DNA from: Roseimaritima multifibrata
Lineage (GTDB): Bacteria; Planctomycetota; Planctomycetia; Pirellulales; Pirellulaceae
Length of the DNA: 64,000 nucleotides
Reading direction: 5' to 3'
Assembly: GCF_007741495.1 (NCBI RefSeq)
Contig: NZ_CP036262.1
Coordinates: forward strand, 6,696,001-6,760,000
The notes beneath the pieces are model-generated. The model was not told the origin of the DNA, did not search any database, and saw only the letters and a list, made by a program, of their open reading frames with translations. Position numbers and translations under genes: made by a program. Of the stretch, positions 46,662-52,646 are shown one piece after another (within the stretch, counting starts at the first letter, position 1; every line of letters begins with the position of its first letter).

Positions 46662-49600
46662 CTAGATGGGGCTGGGCCACTCGACGTCGACTCGTGACTG
46701 CAGCTTGACGGCGACTTTGTGGTTGCCACCTAGGGATTTGATCAGTCGATCAATCATTTCAACCAGTGGAATCGATTGAGCTTCGTGGACCAGAGTCGGC
46801 TGGACTCCTTCGACGATTGTGGTGGTGATGGCCCCTCCATAAGCAGCCTCTAGCGGCGCAGACAATTCTTTTGCTTCACGTTCCGACCCTACGATTAATA
46901 GCAGACGCTGCTTGCCGCCTAAATCCAAAAATGCTGGACGAACGGCCGCTACTGCAGCCTGCACCTGTTCCTCCAAAGTCATTGGTACGGTTTCAGGCTT
47001 GCCCCCTTCCTTCGACGCAAGCTGCATCGAAATCTGTTCCTTCGCACTGTTCAAGCTGACCGACAGCAATGTCTTTTCACTAACTTGTGAATTTTCTTTC
47101 ATCAATGGCATCGCCAACAATCGGCCAACGATATCTAGATGCATCGGTTGACGACACGCCTCCAGTTGCCGATACATTGCTTCACTTAAATGGACTTGAT
47201 CCTCTGCGCCGATCATTGCATCCAACTGGTCGGTCACCTCGGCAACGGCCTCTAAGTGCTGTTTCAAATCCGCAATAAATTGCGTTAGCAACTCTTCCAA
47301 AACATGAACTCGATTGAGCAGGCTTTGGCTGACCGCTTGCTCCAATAGTTTTTCCGTACGATCCAAATTTTGCAAATAGTGATCGGCAGAAACGTTCCCA
47401 GCCAAACCATCAAGAACGGTGTCCGTTCCACTCACATTGCCAGCGACCGTATCGGACTGCAACGGCTTTTGCGGAGCGTTGATTTCCCCACTGCCGGCCT
47501 GCACCTGCGCTAATAAAGTTTGCACGACTTCGATCACCGTATAGAGATCCATTCGCTTATCTTGCAAGCGCACGGTCACTTCTCTGCGCAAACAAGTTAC
47601 ACGATCATGAATCACGCGGTCGTCAGCAGACCCCTCACTCAAACGGCCCAGTTTTTCTTGCAAGCGTTCAAAGACGGGCTGGAAATCGAGACCTTCAGCG
47701 ACATTCTGTTTCCGCAGCCATTGCTCCAGTTCGCCTCGTCTTTGCACGGGGTCTTCTGCAAACGGCTGCCATTTTTGCTGAAGCAACGATTCGACAGAAA
47801 CGCCGCACCGAGCCGCTAAGCGATCGGATATTCCGGGCGCCAATTGCCTCGCTTCGTTCGCGTTGCCCACCCACTCCGCCAGCGTCTGCTTGGCAAGCAT
47901 CGCCGACAAGACGGCCGTTTCGATCTGATCCTGGCAGCTTAAACTGACAACTCCGACCGAACGGGTTGTCGGTCCGGACTGCAGCAAAGTCCCCTCCTCG
48001 GGCACCGGTGGCTTCCTTGCAACCGACAACATCTCGGCAGCGCCCTGACTGCAGCACCAGATGTATTCACTAATCGTTTCAACCGCATTTGCAGCGCCAT
48101 CGATACGATCTGGATTGGCGATTACATAGGCGTTACGCAGTGGAGACCGAGCCGCCGGCACGCTTGGCCAGTTGGCTCCCGGGTCCCCTGAATAGCCATT
48201 TTCGGGTTTTAGATAGTGCCGCAGTTCATTTAGCGCCGCCGCCGAATCGGCATTCCCCAGCGGGTTACGAGCCTGAGGGCGGACCGAATTCGCTGCAAAC
48301 AATGGAATAATATCAGACTGCTCTAGTGCATCACTGTCTAAAAGATGCCGCAGCAAATAGGCGATATCCAGCAGCATTCCACTGCCGGTACCACCGGTCA
48401 ACGATCCGACCAGATAAACCGTCAGCGGCACTCTGGAATCTTTTGCCGTCCGCTTGATTGCTGCCGCCAGCGAATTTCGAATCGCTTCGGAATGGTCGAC
48501 CATCGCCAATCGTCCTAAGGGACGCATCCCTTCGGTCGACCGACTTCGGGGCACGTTGTAGATCCAACGTCGACTGATCGTGCGAAGTTTTTCGGTTCCT
48601 TTGTCACGGTACTGGGACGCTGCCAATAGCGGCGTGTGCACGGTCACACACGGCGAACGCGAATCGGGCCCTTCCAGGCTTCGCAGCAAATACATTTTTT
48701 CGGAATCGGTATCGATCAAAACCGACTCCATCCTGGCATCGGGCGATTTGCCGGACGCTTTCATTTTCTCGTTCAATTCCAGCAACACATCCGCCCCGGT
48801 ACCTCCGATCCCAACGACCAGGCAATTGCCAACCGCCGAAGGATTTTTATTCTCGGGAAAACGTGACAATCCCGGCAGTTCTTCAACAACGGGTGCCCGT
48901 AACTTGCCCGAGGTGGTGATGGTCCCGGCAAGCGTATCGCCACCGATCGATGCGGACTTCCCCGAAGCTCGCAGAGGAACCCCTTGGCTTTGCGAAGCAA
49001 GCAACGCTTCAACCATGTCTCGACAGCAATCGTAACGCCGCTCGGGCTCCTTCTCCAAAGCTCTGGCAACAATCGGGCGATCACATGGAGGCAAAGAATC
49101 CAGATTGGGCGTCGTATGAACATGCTGGGTCGCCAACTGCGCGATCGTCCGGCCCGAAAATGGGCGAGTCCCGGTCAACAGTTCTTGGTACATCACCGCT
49201 AACGAATATTGATCGCTACTTTTGCTAGGTCGTCCATCAAAGACTTCAGGCGGCGCATAAATCGGAGTCAGCCCCCCGATCATCGAACACTGTTCTTCTC
49301 GCAAATCCTTCAACAAACCAAAATCTGCGACCTTAACGTGCCCACCCACCAGCAACAGATTGCCTGGCTTGATATCAAGATGCTGTAACTGAAATTGCTT
49401 ATGCAAATAATCGAGTGCATCCGCTGCATCGTTTAGATAAGAAAGCAAAGCCTGACGAGGGATCCCGCACGAGCCTCTTTCGATATGCCGGTTATACACA
49501 TCCTCCAACGAGCCATCGGCCAATTCACTAACGATCACCAAGCGATCATCAACAAATTCGTATCGTTCCAGCGTCAACAAAAAGGGATGATTGACTCCGG

Positions 49601-49931
49601 TCATATGTTCCAGGGAGCGCAATTCCCGATCCGCTCGCTTTTCGTCTCGAGCACCGTAAACGAACTTAATCGCTTTCTGGAATCCGCCAGGGGCAAGGGC
49701 ACTCCAAACTTCACCGAAGCCGCCCTTCCCTAGGGGTTCCTGGAGGATGTAGCCCGGGATCGGTTCATAGCCCGCCTGCAGTTTCATAGAACCTGAAGTT
49801 GCATTCCCCAGTTCAGGCGCATGACCTGCCAGCTCGCTCTGTTTGACACCAGGCGCATTCAGTCGATCATGTTCAGAGATCTGATTCGATTGCGAAGGAT
49901 CGTTCATAGGACTTTTATCAACAAGCAACAA
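46662..49931 (-). CDS. Ser/Thr protein kinase fused to tubulin-like GTPase domain
   Basis: A 1089-residue soluble protein. The kinase domain (about 60-315) is complete: LGKGGFGEVW loop (67-76), Lys87 in KAIKF, HLDIKPGNL catalytic loop with Asp186 (Leu in place of the usual Arg), VADFGL (201-206) and YAPPE. A linker (316-365) leads to a tubulin-like domain starting LVVGIGGTGADVLLELNEKM (371-390), the nucleotide-binding glycine motif, with LVGSLTGGTGSGMLLDIAYLL (507-527) as the tubulin/FtsZ-type GGTGSG signature. This fits the Tubulin_2-like family (PF13809). The last 400 residues are mainly helical. The start is ATG 49931, or Met9. It lies 30 bp after the AAA+ ATPase gene on the same strand. 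GTP-dependent assembly regulated by phosphorylation is inferred. Confidence 0.88.
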   Translation of the reverse strand: MLLVDKSPMNDPSQSNQISEHDRLNAPGVKQSELAGHAPELGNATSGSMKLQAGYEPIPGYILQEPLGKGGFGEVWSALAPGGFQKAIKFVYGARDEKRADRELRSLEHMTGVNHPFLLTLERYEFVDDRLVIVSELADGSLEDVYNRHIERGSCGIPRQALLSYLNDAADALDYLHKQFQLQHLDIKPGNLLLVGGHVKVADFGLLKDLREEQCSMIGGLTPIYAPPEVFDGRPSKSSDQYSLAVMYQELLTGTRPFSGRTIAQLATQHVHTTPNLDSLPPCDRPIVARALEKEPERRYDCCRDMVEALLASQSQGVPLRASGKSASIGGDTLAGTITTSGKLRAPVVEELPGLSRFPENKNPSAVGNCLVVGIGGTGADVLLELNEKMKASGKSPDARMESVLIDTDSEKMYLLRSLEGPDSRSPCVTVHTPLLAASQYRDKGTEKLRTISRRWIYNVPRSRSTEGMRPLGRLAMVDHSEAIRNSLAAAIKRTAKDSRVPLTVYLVGSLTGGTGSGMLLDIAYLLRHLLDSDALEQSDIIPLFAANSVRPQARNPLGNADSAAALNELRHYLKPENGYSGDPGANWPSVPAARSPLRNAYVIANPDRIDGAANAVETISEYIWCCSQGAAEMLSVARKPPVPEEGTLLQSGPTTRSVGVVSLSCQDQIETAVLSAMLAKQTLAEWVGNANEARQLAPGISDRLAARCGVSVESLLQQKWQPFAEDPVQRRGELEQWLRKQNVAEGLDFQPVFERLQEKLGRLSEGSADDRVIHDRVTCLRREVTVRLQDKRMDLYTVIEVVQTLLAQVQAGSGEINAPQKPLQSDTVAGNVSGTDTVLDGLAGNVSADHYLQNLDRTEKLLEQAVSQSLLNRVHVLEELLTQFIADLKQHLEAVAEVTDQLDAMIGAEDQVHLSEAMYRQLEACRQPMHLDIVGRLLAMPLMKENSQVSEKTLLSVSLNSAKEQISMQLASKEGGKPETVPMTLEEQVQAAVAAVRPAFLDLGGKQRLLLIVGSEREAKELSAPLEAAYGGAITTTIVEGVQPTLVHEAQSIPLVEMIDRLIKSLGGNHKVAVKLQSRVDVEWPSPI

Positions 49932-49960
49932 TTAGCAGACGAGAAACAGGAAACAGAAAT

Positions 49961-51283
49961 CTACAATTCGCTGAAATAGCTTCGGCATGCCATATCGAGA
50001 AACTCAGGACGCAACTGAGGCCGAATTTTTCGATACCTGCAATAGTTACGGACCTGGGTCAGTAGATCGCGTGGATGACAACGCCGCAGGTTACGGTTTT
50101 CACGTCGATACAATTTCAACAGATGTTCCGCTGCTTCCGCCCCGTGTTCAAATCCAAACGCGGCAGCCACCCCTTTCGTAATCGCGCGATACTCCTCCTC
50201 GGAGGGATCATCGACAAAAATCTTGTAGGGGACGCGGCGAAGGAAAGCTTCATCCACCAATTGATCTGGATTCAAGTTGGTCGAAAAAATGATCAACTGT
50301 TCGAAGGGGACTTGGATTTTCTTGCCGGTTGGCAAGGTCAAGAAATCAAGACGATTTTCTAGCGGAACGATCCAGCGATTCAACAGTTCTTCGGGCTGGA
50401 TACGCTGGCGACCAAAATCGTCGATCAACAGGCAGCCGCAATTGCTTTTCATCTGCAGCGGTGCTTCACAGATATTGCTCTGGCGATCGTGGCGAACTTC
50501 CAAATTCTCCATCACAAGTTCACCACCGACAATCACCGTCGGGCGCTGAATTCGCAGCCAGCGGCGATCCCATTCCTGAGAATGGACGACACCGTCGCCT
50601 TCAGGAACCGGAGCGGCACGATGGTAAGCATCGTCCTGCAGTTTGATCAGGTTTCCATCGTCCAAGATCGCATGGGGAATCCAGATTTCCTGCCCTAGGC
50701 ACTGGGTCAGACAGCGTGCGACAGTGGTTTTCCCATTTCCTGGAGGCCCAAACAAAAACATTCCTGCGTTGCTATTTACGGCGGGGCCCAACTGATCAAG
50801 CAATTCATCCTGGTAGGAGATCGCCTGCAGTGCCTGCTGCAATTGATCGCGGTCAATCGGTTCAAGTCCAGCGGTTTGAGCTTCAACACTTAGGACGTAA
50901 TCCGACAATACCACCGGAGCGGGTCCGGTGTACGAACAGTTCTGCATGTGTTGCTGAGCCGCTCGCTGGCCGTTTTCTGAAAGCGAATAGTAATAGTCAT
51001 TGAAGGGTGCAGGACGGACATGCACGACCAGCTTGCGCGTGCGCAGCCGCTCCAGAAGCGGTTCGATGACGCGAAGTGGCAACCCCATCTGCTCGCCGAT
51101 ATTGCGGCCACTGAGGGTTCCAATGTTTAGAACGGTTTTAAGGAGCAAGCTTTCAATAAAAGAGTCGCTCAGACCCGTTTCGGCGGTGTCACGAGGAGTC
51201 ACAGGCCAAAACGTATCATCCGACAACAGGCCGCTAAGCAACCCTGATTCGATCGTATGCGTGTCTCGAATTGCAGTAGACAT
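49961..51283 (-). CDS. AAA+ ATPase with N-terminal winged helix
   Basis: A 440-residue protein from the ATG at 51283. Residues 38-115 (LSDSFIESLLLKTVLNIGTLSGRNIGEQMGLPLRVIEPLLERLRTRKLV) look like a winged-helix domain, and a short linker with PAPVVLSDYVLSVEA follows. The AAA+ domain (about 145-400) has Walker A GPPGNGKTT (179-187), Walker B LLIDDFG (285-291), sensor-1 IFSTNLN and an Arg pair RRVPYK (349-350). CHPRDLLTQVRNYCRYR is a C-terminal lid. It ends 30 bp before the kinase-tubulin gene, so the two form an operon. It may remodel the tubulin-like assembly or act as its regulator; this is inference. Confidence 0.87.
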   Translation of the reverse strand: MSTAIRDTHTIESGLLSGLLSDDTFWPVTPRDTAETGLSDSFIESLLLKTVLNIGTLSGRNIGEQMGLPLRVIEPLLERLRTRKLVVHVRPAPFNDYYYSLSENGQRAAQQHMQNCSYTGPAPVVLSDYVLSVEAQTAGLEPIDRDQLQQALQAISYQDELLDQLGPAVNSNAGMFLFGPPGNGKTTVARCLTQCLGQEIWIPHAILDDGNLIKLQDDAYHRAAPVPEGDGVVHSQEWDRRWLRIQRPTVIVGGELVMENLEVRHDRQSNICEAPLQMKSNCGCLLIDDFGRQRIQPEELLNRWIVPLENRLDFLTLPTGKKIQVPFEQLIIFSTNLNPDQLVDEAFLRRVPYKIFVDDPSEEEYRAITKGVAAAFGFEHGAEAAEHLLKLYRRENRNLRRCHPRDLLTQVRNYCRYRKIRPQLRPEFLDMACRSYFSEL

Positions 51284-51530
51284 AAGGTTTTCACTTGTTC
51301 CGATACATAAACTGAAGCGGTTTCGCTGAAACATAGCTCACACCTTGTGCCGTACCGCAACCTTCTGCCCAACGTTTTCCAAACGCAATTTAGAAACATC
51401 GGAAATTTTGCGATTGCATCCCCCCCGCCCCAATTCCCTGTCCTAAGTTTCGGTGGCTTTCGGGAACCCGAAAGCGAAAAACGGTCCGAAGAATCCTCCT
51501 CACTTCCACCAAGCGTTGCTTTGCATTCAC

Positions 51531-52646
51531 ATGAACTGGTCTCCATCCGTATCGTCCAACGATCCCATGCGGGTTAGCGCGACAACCAAGCCGGATGTTT
51601 GGTTCCTATCGGGTGCGACTCGAGGTGAAGAAGACGTTCGGCATATCCCGATCGACGAAAACCCGTACGTAATCGGACGGCGAGCGGGCGTTGCGATGAC
51701 GCTGCACTTCCCCACTGTCAGCGGGCACCATGCTTCGCTGTGGGTCGAAAATGGCGAACTGTTTGTCAAAGACTTGCAAAGCACCAACGGGACCTACGTC
51801 AACGGAACACGGATCGATCGCCCCACCCCTTTAAACGAAGAGGACCTGGTCCACTTCGCCGAAGCCCCGTTCCGGATCCGCCGGCAATCGGCGTCCAGTC
51901 ACACGATGGGGACGATCGCCGAGAACGTCTGCGATCAAGCCCTGGCACTGGTACAGTTCGATCGCCTGATGGACCAACGCTTGGTCGTTCCACACTTTCA
52001 GTCGATCCTCGACTTAAGGACTCGCAAATCGGTCGGCTTTGAAGTCCTGGGACGCGGCCGAGTCTTTGGACTTGAATCGGTTGGAGCGATGTTCCAAGCC
52101 GCCGAACAACTTAATCTTGAAGTCGAACTAAGCCGCCTGCTGCGATGGGAAGGAGTCCGCGTCGGCCGCGACCTACCCGATCGTCCGACGCTCTACGTGA
52201 ACACTCACCCCAAAGAGATGGCCGGCGAAGGCTTAATTGACAGCCTTGGCAATCTCCGCGACATGGCTGGCAACACGTCGATCGTTCTTGAGATCCACGA
52301 AGCGTCCGTAACCGAACCCGCGATGATGCAAAAACTGCACGCTCGCCTAAAAGATCTGGGCATGCAATTGGCGTACGACGATTTCGGCGCCGGGCAAGCA
52401 CGTTTAGCCGAACTGATCGAAGCTAGACCTGAATTCGTCAAATTCGATATCTCGTTGATTCGAGGAATCGATTCGGCCGATCCGCACCGTGTGCAGATGT
52501 TATCGACCCTTGTCCGAATGGTCCGGGACCTCGACATCCAAGCATTGGCCGAAGGGATCGAAACCGCTGAAGAAGCCCAAGCCTGCCAGGACCTTGGATT
52601 CGATTTAGCACAGGGCTTCTACTTCGGCCGCCCCGCCCCCGCCTAA
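51531..52646 (+). CDS. FHA-EAL fusion protein (putative c-di-GMP phosphodiesterase)
   Basis: A 371-residue protein. The FHA domain (about 40-110) has VIGRRAGVAMTLHFPTVSGHHASLWVENGELFVKDLQSTNGTYVNG, with the Arg and SGHHA phosphothreonine pocket and NGT loop. The EAL domain (about 140-365) has the catalytic Glu in FEVLGRGR (E-x-L-x-R), YVNTHP (Asn), LEIHEA (Glu), YDDFGAG (Asp pair), FVKFDISLIRG (Lys/Asp) and EGIET, so metal ligands look intact. It would hydrolyse c-di-GMP and bind a phosphothreonine protein, plausibly the neighbouring kinase. Starts at 51531 or 51567 (MRVSATT) are both possible. It is divergent from the AAA+ gene with a 247-bp shared upstream region. Confidence 0.85.
   Translation: MNWSPSVSSNDPMRVSATTKPDVWFLSGATRGEEDVRHIPIDENPYVIGRRAGVAMTLHFPTVSGHHASLWVENGELFVKDLQSTNGTYVNGTRIDRPTPLNEEDLVHFAEAPFRIRRQSASSHTMGTIAENVCDQALALVQFDRLMDQRLVVPHFQSILDLRTRKSVGFEVLGRGRVFGLESVGAMFQAAEQLNLEVELSRLLRWEGVRVGRDLPDRPTLYVNTHPKEMAGEGLIDSLGNLRDMAGNTSIVLEIHEASVTEPAMMQKLHARLKDLGMQLAYDDFGAGQARLAELIEARPEFVKFDISLIRGIDSADPHRVQMLSTLVRMVRDLDIQALAEGIETAEEAQACQDLGFDLAQGFYFGRPAPA

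Follow-up and report, generated by a model that had tools for sequence, protein, structure and literature searches.

Genes and domains at the locus

The window analyzed here is a 64,000-nucleotide stretch of contig NZ_CP036262.1 from Roseimaritima multifibrata (positions 6,696,001 to 6,760,000). Three of its genes concern us: KT, which encodes a Ser/Thr kinase fused to a tubulin-like domain; AAA1, which encodes a winged-helix AAA+ ATPase and sits 29 bp upstream of KT on the same strand; and a divergent gene for a protein with FHA and EAL domains. Their features are as follows, in window coordinates.

46662..49931 (-): KT, kinase-tubulin fusion gene; 1089 codons, TTG start, with an ATG at 49907 as the other possible start
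48987..49769 (-): Hanks-type Ser/Thr kinase domain of KT, aa 55-315
48837..48986 (-): kinase-tubulin linker of KT, aa 316-365; contains Ser/Thr; model confidence mostly low
47937..48836 (-): FtsZl1/Tubulin_2 GTPase-like domain of KT, aa 366-665; from the PF13809 match, alignments and the model
46980..47936 (-): long helical, coiled-coil-like region of KT, aa 666-984; modeled helices between 667 and 974
46665..46979 (-): small C-terminal alpha/beta domain of KT, aa 985-1089; from the model and conservation
49961..51334 (-): AAA1, winged-helix AAA+ ATPase of the partner subfamily; probable start near 51283
50930..51166 (-): winged-helix domain of AAA1, aa 57-135; from the AlphaFold model, with MarR-fold matches
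50135..50857 (-): AAA+ core of AAA1, about aa 160-400; GPPGNGKT, LLIDDFGRQR, FSTNL, FLRR; model confidence low over much of it
51453..52646 (+): FHA-EAL protein gene, divergent from AAA1
51666..51857 (+): FHA domain (PF00498), aa 72-135; phosphopeptide-binding residues retained
51912..51914 (+): Thr154 in the FHA-EAL linker, an invariant threonine and candidate phosphorylation site
51960..52634 (+): EAL domain (PF00563), aa 170-394; full catalytic set E197, N, E, D309-D310, K, E, Q

The reading of KT as a kinase-tubulin fusion in the initial annotation held up. Pfam assigned Pkinase (E 9e-32) and Tubulin_2 (E 8.5e-29) to the window protein, the latter (PF13809) at 101.3 bits against a cut-off of 27, and PF13809 matched 19/19 members of sequence set A3 at E 0.01. 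The canonical FtsZ/tubulin family, PF00091, reached 17.4 bits on the window KT, below its cut-off of 33. Our comparison sample of 93 KT loci came from a PF13809 search alone, from which 100 of 121 match sites beyond the window were retrieved, plus the window itself. The window kinase keeps K89, D186, N191 and D203, with HLD replacing HRD. Across the sample, K89, D186 (the HxD Asp) and D203 (the DFG Asp) are retained in 92/93, 91/93 and 92/93 KT proteins, and the HRD Arg is Leu in all 92 rows aligned there (non-RD).

The tubulin part carries a GIGGTG loop, the motifs RRWxYNxP and RPLG (residues 454-473) and, at residue 513, GGTGSG, which represents the FtsZl1 signature loop GGGTG(S/T)G or a near variant. 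RRWxxNxP marks KT among Tubulin_2 proteins (88/93 KT proteins vs. 0/16 other Tubulin_2 loci). The GGTGSG loop is exact in only 32/93 KT proteins, with GGTGGG in 27/93, and in FtsZl1 no counterparts of the T6-H7 elements of the FtsZ site could be recognized (PMC2875224, section 4), so GTP hydrolysis and filament formation by KT stay predictions. R1080, D1082 and W1085 of the C-terminal domain are near-invariant in 19 aligned rows. In the linker, the predicted model has pLDDT values below 50 at residues 316-345 and 361-365, and visual inspection of the kinase-tubulin linkers listed revealed no conserved phosphorylation motif. Fold searches with the whole KT model (Foldseek PDB, BFVD and VIA-align) listed almost exclusively kinase-type matches; because the kinase domain filled these lists, the searches are uninformative about the tubulin part (residues 366-665). 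A single-sequence phmmer search of residues 358-1089 against the PDB gave no match at E 1; a profile gave non-significant matches only.

AAA1 has Walker A, Walker B and sensor 1 by sequence motif. Its Walker B reads DD instead of DE in 76/76 rows, which may mean weak hydrolysis. The window protein scored under the Pfam cut-offs (AAA, 19.0 vs. 21.2; bpMoxR, 18.5 vs. 27), and the best E-value of the 22 members of AAA set A4 against Pfam was 1.6e-4 (AAA_16), a figure taken without cut-off comparison. An AAA1 profile run against the PDB found classical AAA proteins (VCP-like, Msp1, spastin) over short stretches, with a best E of 1.8e-6, and these matches suggest that AAA1 could be a severing or disassembling AAA.

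An AAA+ partner and an FHA-EAL protein that could hydrolyze c-di-GMP had also been claimed for this locus; both genes are present in the window, and the catalytic residues of the EAL domain are intact. The FHA phosphopeptide residues GRSHNGN are present in 108/108 FHA-EAL rows, a set that mixes two samples and holds some contigs twice (L145/L068, L148/L101, L161/L107, L164/L125, L178/L096).

Linkage and co-occurrence of the three genes

Partner linkage was counted by a six-frame, stop-to-stop search of each stretch. Within the stretch, AAA1 was found at 77 of the 93 KT loci, FHA-EAL at 85, both at 73 and neither at 4; that is, 89/93 KT loci have an AAA+ and/or FHA-EAL gene nearby. Gene orders were <FE AAA KT; AAA <C3 FE KT; AAA KT FE; FE AAA KT; and DGC FE AAA KT. 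Tubulin_2 was detected in 112 of 296 genomes of the host's order. The AAA1 subfamily occurred in 100/112 Tubulin_2 genomes vs. 0/184 others, and FHA-EAL in 99/112 vs. 5/184. This survey bears out the earlier proposal that the three genes form a set.

Only KT, FHA-EAL, AAA1 and a REC-GGDEF-CBS gene recurred at over 11 of the 101 loci. Cluster c29, a candidate second neighbor family, was rejected: in the six-frame search its four loci all hold the REC-GGDEF-CBS gene, and c29 is presumably a spurious frame overlapping it. No vWA, P-loop GTPase (TRAFAC) or OmpA gene was a recurrent neighbor of KT at the 101 loci. By Pfam, the six neighbors of the window cassette are a sulfatase, a prolyl oligopeptidase, a metallophosphatase, a PhyH protein, a ceramidase-like protein and one protein without a match, with no vWA, GTPase or OmpA among them. 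As controls, KT or FHA-EAL was found at 0/53 loci of the AAA2 paralogue, a test weaker than its count given that just 23/53 stretches span 4 kb on both sides, 6/53 are short on both sides and L219 lies below the score cut. AAA1 or FHA-EAL was found at 0/16 Tubulin_2 loci without the kinase-tubulin fusion.

Some observations speak against a single unit. Full-score AAA1 is absent from 12/112 Tubulin_2 genomes (some of which carry a partial AAA or Tubulin_2 of another kind), one genome, G264, lacks both partners despite a complete KT, and 4/27 AAA1 loci from the AAA scan (L146, L157, L159 and L162) show no KT within the stretch, which for L157 extends about 10 kb to either side. That the three genes belong together as a unit is well supported, and the cassette is inherited as a unit. 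Very probably, KT, AAA1 and FHA-EAL work as one signaling machine in many planctomycetes. The host group of the cassette we take to be the class Planctomycetia, going by general taxonomic knowledge, sequence records and kinship labels.

Three cassette types

Cassettes fall into types, and on the KT tree these types show strong clustering. Type 0 has an intact GGDEF and an intact EAL; type I, to which the window belongs, has an intact EAL alone; type II has REC-GGDEF-CBS and FHA-EAL proteins, the active sites of both eroded. The EAL catalytic set is complete in the window and in 62/63 type I rows (one D to N), and in 0/39 type II rows, counted as one gene per locus, which keep 0 to 6 of the 9 residues. 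Joint loss of the GGDEF and EAL active sites in those 39 rows left the proteins themselves and the FHA site in place. Since these active sites are incomplete, turnover of c-di-GMP cannot be what every cassette outputs, nor is it the invariant part of the system. The suggested tie to c-di-GMP is consistent with types 0 and I but not with type II.

A linker threonine shortly behind the FHA domain (Thr154 in the window) is present in 69/69 type 0/I rows and is shifted two positions onward in 39/39 type II rows. Threonine is also found at the same place in 15/21 FHA-EAL paralogues unlinked to KT, so it need not be a KT substrate.

Locus L104 has a second REC-GGDEF-type gene with GGEEF kept, outside the 39-row count. 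For the type 0 cyclase, a by-eye reading of the N-terminal half as a CBS domain was discarded, with Pfam giving GGDEF only in 4/4. A full-length orthologue of this cyclase was not found in the window's own genome, where matches cover the GGDEF part only. The same genome holds an unlinked REC-GGDEF-CBS-like homologue (26% identical) at 1.64 Mb.

Comparison with known systems

The fusion of a kinase to Tubulin_2 is not new. Makarova and Koonin described FtsZl1 (Tubulin_2, PF13809) in 2010 with four planctomycete members carrying an N-terminal kinase domain, and their reply to a reviewer places Psta_0487, a diguanylate phosphodiesterase, beside FtsZl1 in Pirellula staleyi (PMC2875224). The word "undescribed" in the initial annotation can therefore apply at most to the cassette, the fusion and one EAL neighbor having been noted there. 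In the literature searched, we found no paper describing these genes as a cassette and no experimental function for the FtsZl1 family. KT shares the tubulin-superfamily domain and the helical tail with that family, but dedicated AAA+ and FHA-EAL proteins replace the recurrent vWA, P-loop GTPase and OmpA partners.

Bdellovibrio DgcB, a precedent for the mechanism proposed below, is an FHA-GGDEF protein gated by binding of the FHA domain to a conserved threonine in its own tail; that study did not identify the kinase (PMC6733907). FHA-EAL likewise fuses FHA to a c-di-GMP domain, but this is EAL rather than GGDEF, the threonine lies behind rather than before FHA, and the same cassette encodes a kinase-tubulin fusion. 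The GAP1-N2 and DO-GTPase conflict systems are described as conserved multi-gene sets whose tubulin-family members carry coiled-coil tails (PMC7159879). The KT cassette resembles them in its coiled-coil-like tail and conserved gene set; it differs in that GTPase, HSP70 and vWA partners are not recurrent and second-messenger domains are found instead. In TubZ-TubR partition, a tubulin homologue is paired with a winged-helix protein. The cassette has this pairing too, but its winged helix belongs to an AAA+ ATPase, its tubulin to a kinase fusion, and the set extends to FHA-EAL and GGDEF proteins.

Proposed mechanism and alternatives

We propose that the three genes form one cassette that works as follows, an account that we regard as close to an even call. 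The tubulin part of KT would assemble with GTP, bringing kinase domains together, and the clustered kinase would phosphorylate Thr154 of the FHA-EAL linker, possibly along with KT itself. The FHA domain could bind phospho-Thr154 in cis or in trans; this binding would switch the EAL phosphodiesterase and change c-di-GMP locally. In type 0, where a GGDEF cyclase is also encoded, synthesis and breakdown would be paired. The winged-helix AAA+ would remodel or dismantle the KT assembly and so reset the system. The initial annotation had phosphorylation gating GTPase assembly, and a kinase gated by assembly fits the evidence at least as well. A related version, which we consider possible though rather doubtful, makes the tubulin-type polymer a GTP-timed platform that activates its own kinase, with FHA-EAL/GGDEF reading the phosphothreonine mark and a dedicated AAA+ disassembling the polymer; the type II enzymes would then be phospho-read pseudoenzymes whose messenger chemistry was discarded. 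If this is true, type II shows a pathway that is moving away from a diffusible messenger and toward contacts between proteins.

The cassette joins Ser/Thr phosphorylation, tubulin-family GTPases and c-di-GMP, fields that are usually apart, in bacteria reportedly lacking FtsZ (PMC10632474). It offers a definite hypothesis of what an FtsZl1 protein does, one small locus naming a candidate kinase, a candidate substrate residue and a candidate reader. The three cassette types supply natural variants bearing on the purpose of the EAL and GGDEF domains.

KT might instead be a phosphorylation-regulated FtsZl1 cytoskeleton for envelope remodeling or budding without FtsZ, tied by FHA-EAL to attachment or a sessile-motile switch. 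Membrane remodeling has been proposed for FtsZl1 systems (PMC2875224), and planctomycetes are reported to divide without FtsZ (PMC10632474). PF00091 has no match in the window's genome (13/14 control genomes match), where PF00091 and PF13809 detect no tubulin-superfamily protein besides KT. We nonetheless think this role unlikely: a domain found in only 112/296 genomes of the order cannot be a general FtsZ substitute, and the vWA, GTPase and OmpA partners that underlie the remodeling proposal are neither recurrent beside KT nor found by Pfam among the six window neighbors. It is more doubtful still that the cassette positions DNA, with the winged-helix AAA+ binding DNA and linking it to the KT tubulin in the style of TubR, TubZ and a plasmid centromere. 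The FHA-EAL and GGDEF partners speak for signaling, and AAA2, a widespread paralogue without a tubulin in its vicinity, also scores with the alignment covering the winged helix.

We give very little credence to a conflict (defense) system of the tubulin/GTPase kind, even though tubulin-containing conflict systems are on record (PMC7159879) and PADLOC kinase models match the KT kinase domain (mad6, 145.7 bits; PD-T4-6, 134.5 bits). The PADLOC matches listed for KT lie on the kinase domain or barely beyond it and are expected of any Hanks kinase, a vWA/GTPase partner is not recurrent beside KT, the cassette types cluster strongly on the KT tree, and second-messenger enzymes, intact or decayed, are unlike effectors. 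Chance linkage of three unrelated genes is scarcely credible. KT-unlinked FHA-EAL paralogues exist (21 were examined), and KT is distant from the AAA1 and FHA-EAL genes in genomes G220 and G261; against this, linkage persists across several gene orders, AAA1 co-occurs even when unlinked, and for practical purposes these counts refute coincidence. Where one genome has two cassettes (n = 3), each keeps its own partners: in 18/18 nearest-neighbor tests (6 copies x 3 proteins), the nearest relative was of the same type elsewhere and not the other copy.

The kinase-tubulin locus and its distribution

The cassette in the window consists of three genes, of which the first encodes a fusion of a Ser/Thr kinase and an FtsZl1/Tubulin_2 domain (KT), the second its winged-helix AAA+ partner (AAA1) and the third an FHA-EAL protein.

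46662-49931, minus strand: KT gene; Pfam matches to Pkinase (residues 62-301) and Tubulin_2 (residues 371-582)
49961-51334, minus strand as KT, 29 bp upstream of it: AAA+ gene (AAA1); Pfam AAA matches sub-threshold only
51453-52646, divergent: FHA-EAL gene; Pfam matches to FHA and EAL

PF13809 has a single match in the entire 7.2 Mb genome. PF00091 (FtsZ/tubulin) has none there, and the same search gave matches in 13 of 14 control genomes. Of six neighbours of the cassette, one has no Pfam match; the others encode a sulfatase, a prolyl oligopeptidase, a metallophosphatase, a PhyH protein and a ceramidase-like protein.

FtsZl1 was defined by Makarova and Koonin (PMC2875224). That paper reports an N-terminal kinase domain in four planctomycete members, and its response to one reviewer mentions that Pirellula staleyi has a diguanylate phosphodiesterase next to FtsZl1. 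The kinase remark recurs in a 2023 paper (PMC9871819), and FtsZl1 is listed in the Gemmata massiliana genome paper (PMC4672568). We found no description of the cassette in the open-licence literature; the 2010 supplement (PMC2875224) may list the AAA gene.

A PF13809 profile search of 296 genomes of the window's order (one per species, some fragmentary) matched 112 genomes in 62 of 121 genera, at 122 places in total. AAA1 scored at least 683 bits and its paralogue AAA2 at most 632 bits, and this gap was used to set the subfamilies apart. Of the 112 Tubulin_2 genomes, 100 carried AAA1, compared with 0 of the 184 genomes without a PF13809 match (Fisher 5e-66, a figure inflated by species relatedness). 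FHA-EAL genes of the cassette family were found in 99/112 and 5/184, respectively. In a thin sample of the phylum (392 genomes), a PF13809 search with a cut-off of E 0.001 matched 22 genomes, of which 15 do not belong to the window's order; among the 11 of those 15 that were fetched, KT was seen in only three, all of the window's class.

Linkage and co-inheritance of the three genes

We fetched 100 of the 121 PF13809 places outside the window and added the window itself. KT was present in 93 of these loci. Within the stretches examined, an AAA gene lay near KT in 77, an FHA-EAL gene in 85, both in 73 and neither in 4. Gene order varies: the window has a divergent FHA-EAL gene followed by AAA-KT, and elsewhere we saw AAA-KT-FHA-EAL, FHA-EAL-AAA-KT, and AAA, a reversed REC-GGDEF-CBS gene, FHA-EAL and KT. 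Two genomes with partnerless KT loci (G220 and G261) carry AAA1 and FHA-EAL genes elsewhere, although an FHA-EAL gene among these may be of the unlinked kind. In a third (G267) the two are adjacent to each other at a distance of about 28 kb from KT, and in a fourth (G264) neither was found in the genome. At one locus (L163), two KT-type ORFs of 635 and 613 residues follow each other beside AAA1, representing either a KT gene divided in two or a frameshift.

The reverse sample started from the AAA gene and covered the best 80 of at least 594 pattern matches. In this sample, KT was present within the stretch at 23 of 27 AAA1 loci; of the four without it, two are on stretches shorter than 14 kb and one (L157) is flanked by about 10 kb in both directions. 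As controls, KT or FHA-EAL was found at 0 of 53 AAA2 loci, just 23 of whose stretches extend 4 kb on both sides, and AAA1 or FHA-EAL at 0 of 16 other Tubulin_2 loci.

Three genomes each hold two cassettes of differing type, giving six copies of three proteins and thus 18 tests, run among 76 loci. The nearest relative was the same type in another genome in all 18 tests and the other copy in none. These genomes are less exposed to species-relatedness bias than the Fisher figures. Pairwise distances correlated at 0.84 for KT and AAA1, 0.53 for AAA1 and FHA-EAL and 0.46 for KT and FHA-EAL, with a contribution from shared species history. That the three genes belong together as a unit is well supported.

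Three cassette types

Cassettes fall into three types, counted as one gene per locus from two mixed samples with a few repeats. Type 0 (6 rows: L125, L229, L230, L231, L156 and L164, the last repeating L125) is a four-gene operon including a GGDEF protein; GGDEF was the only Pfam domain found in each of the four such proteins scanned. Both the GGDEF motif and the EAL set are intact in 6/6. Type 0 cassettes were seen in a single family within the window's order (G009) and in a different family of the same class (G582, G598, G606). Type I, that of the window, has no linked cyclase; the EAL set is complete in 62 of its 63 rows, with one D to N change. In type II (39 rows), a REC-GGDEF-CBS gene (Pfam of examples) adjoins the FHA-EAL gene, and neither an intact GGDEF motif nor a complete EAL set was found (0/39 each); its EAL domains keep 0 to 6 of 9 residues, the alignment being uncertain in the most decayed rows. 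When the count is restricted to the PF13809 sample (85 FHA-EAL rows), EAL is complete in 44/45 type I, 1/1 type 0 and 0/39 type II. Since FHA-EAL paralogues unlinked to KT keep the EAL set in 21/21, the decay is a property of type II cassettes. On a quick KT tree (102 rows, midpoint-rooted for drawing), the three types need 5 changes, compared with a mean of 34 in shuffles.

One cassette (L104) has two REC-GGDEF-type genes beside it, one with a decayed motif and the other with an intact GGEEF; the latter was excluded from the 39 type II rows. The window's genome also encodes a REC-GGDEF-CBS-like protein not linked to the cassette (L132, G000:C1:1639690-1640997), 26% identical to a type II REC-GGDEF-CBS protein over residues 35-466 of the latter; the unlinked protein could serve the cassette in trans.

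The FHA site and a proposed mechanism

The phosphopeptide residues of the FHA domain are retained in 108/108 rows across all types. The linker directly behind this domain is variable apart from a threonine, which in the window is Thr154. Types 0 and I have it in 69/69 rows, and in type II it is shifted two positions further on (39/39 rows). This threonine also occurs in 15 of the 21 unlinked FHA-EAL paralogues. In a genome without Tubulin_2 (G122), a pair of FHA-EAL genes is separated by about 1.4 kb (L247:1-5401), and one of the pair has lost the G-R of the FHA site.

The kinase, tubulin-like domain, AAA+ protein and FHA site are kept across cassettes, and the second-messenger chemistry varies. 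This pattern suggests that the core link of the cassette is the reading of phosphothreonine, and that c-di-GMP is a dispensable output, kept in types 0 and I and dropped in type II. The tubulin domain would drive KT assembly and so switch on the kinase, which might then mark the linker threonine; the AAA+ protein may reset the assembly. The Walker B motif of the AAA+ partner (window 49961-51334) reads hhhhDD, not hhhhDE, in 76/76 rows, which is unusual for an active AAA+ ATPase.

The closest published mechanism we found is that of DgcB of Bdellovibrio, an FHA-GGDEF enzyme that is reported to become active once the FHA domain has bound a conserved threonine of the enzyme's tail (PMC6733907). 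The kinase acting on DgcB was not identified in that study. Here a kinase is encoded within the same cassette.

Related genes outside the cassette

Eight fetched Tubulin_2 proteins fall outside the KT cluster. Four adjoin large related genes of one neighbour cluster, c25 (Tubulin_2 at L063:10041-12719 and L065:5471-8245; c25 also at L120 and L130). The one c25 gene of the four that was scanned with Pfam, at L065, encodes a vWA-PKD protein. These loci likely represent the type of FtsZl1/vWA system reported in 2010.

AAA2, the second winged-helix AAA+ protein, is widespread (L165-L177, L179, L181-L219 and many genomes of the order). Among the best 80 of at least 594 pattern matches, its identity to AAA1 of the window is about 43-53%, and no recurrent neighbour was seen beside it. 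At L190, an AAA2-type match lies within an open frame of 2185 residues at the end of a contig; this frame is either a fusion or an artefact.
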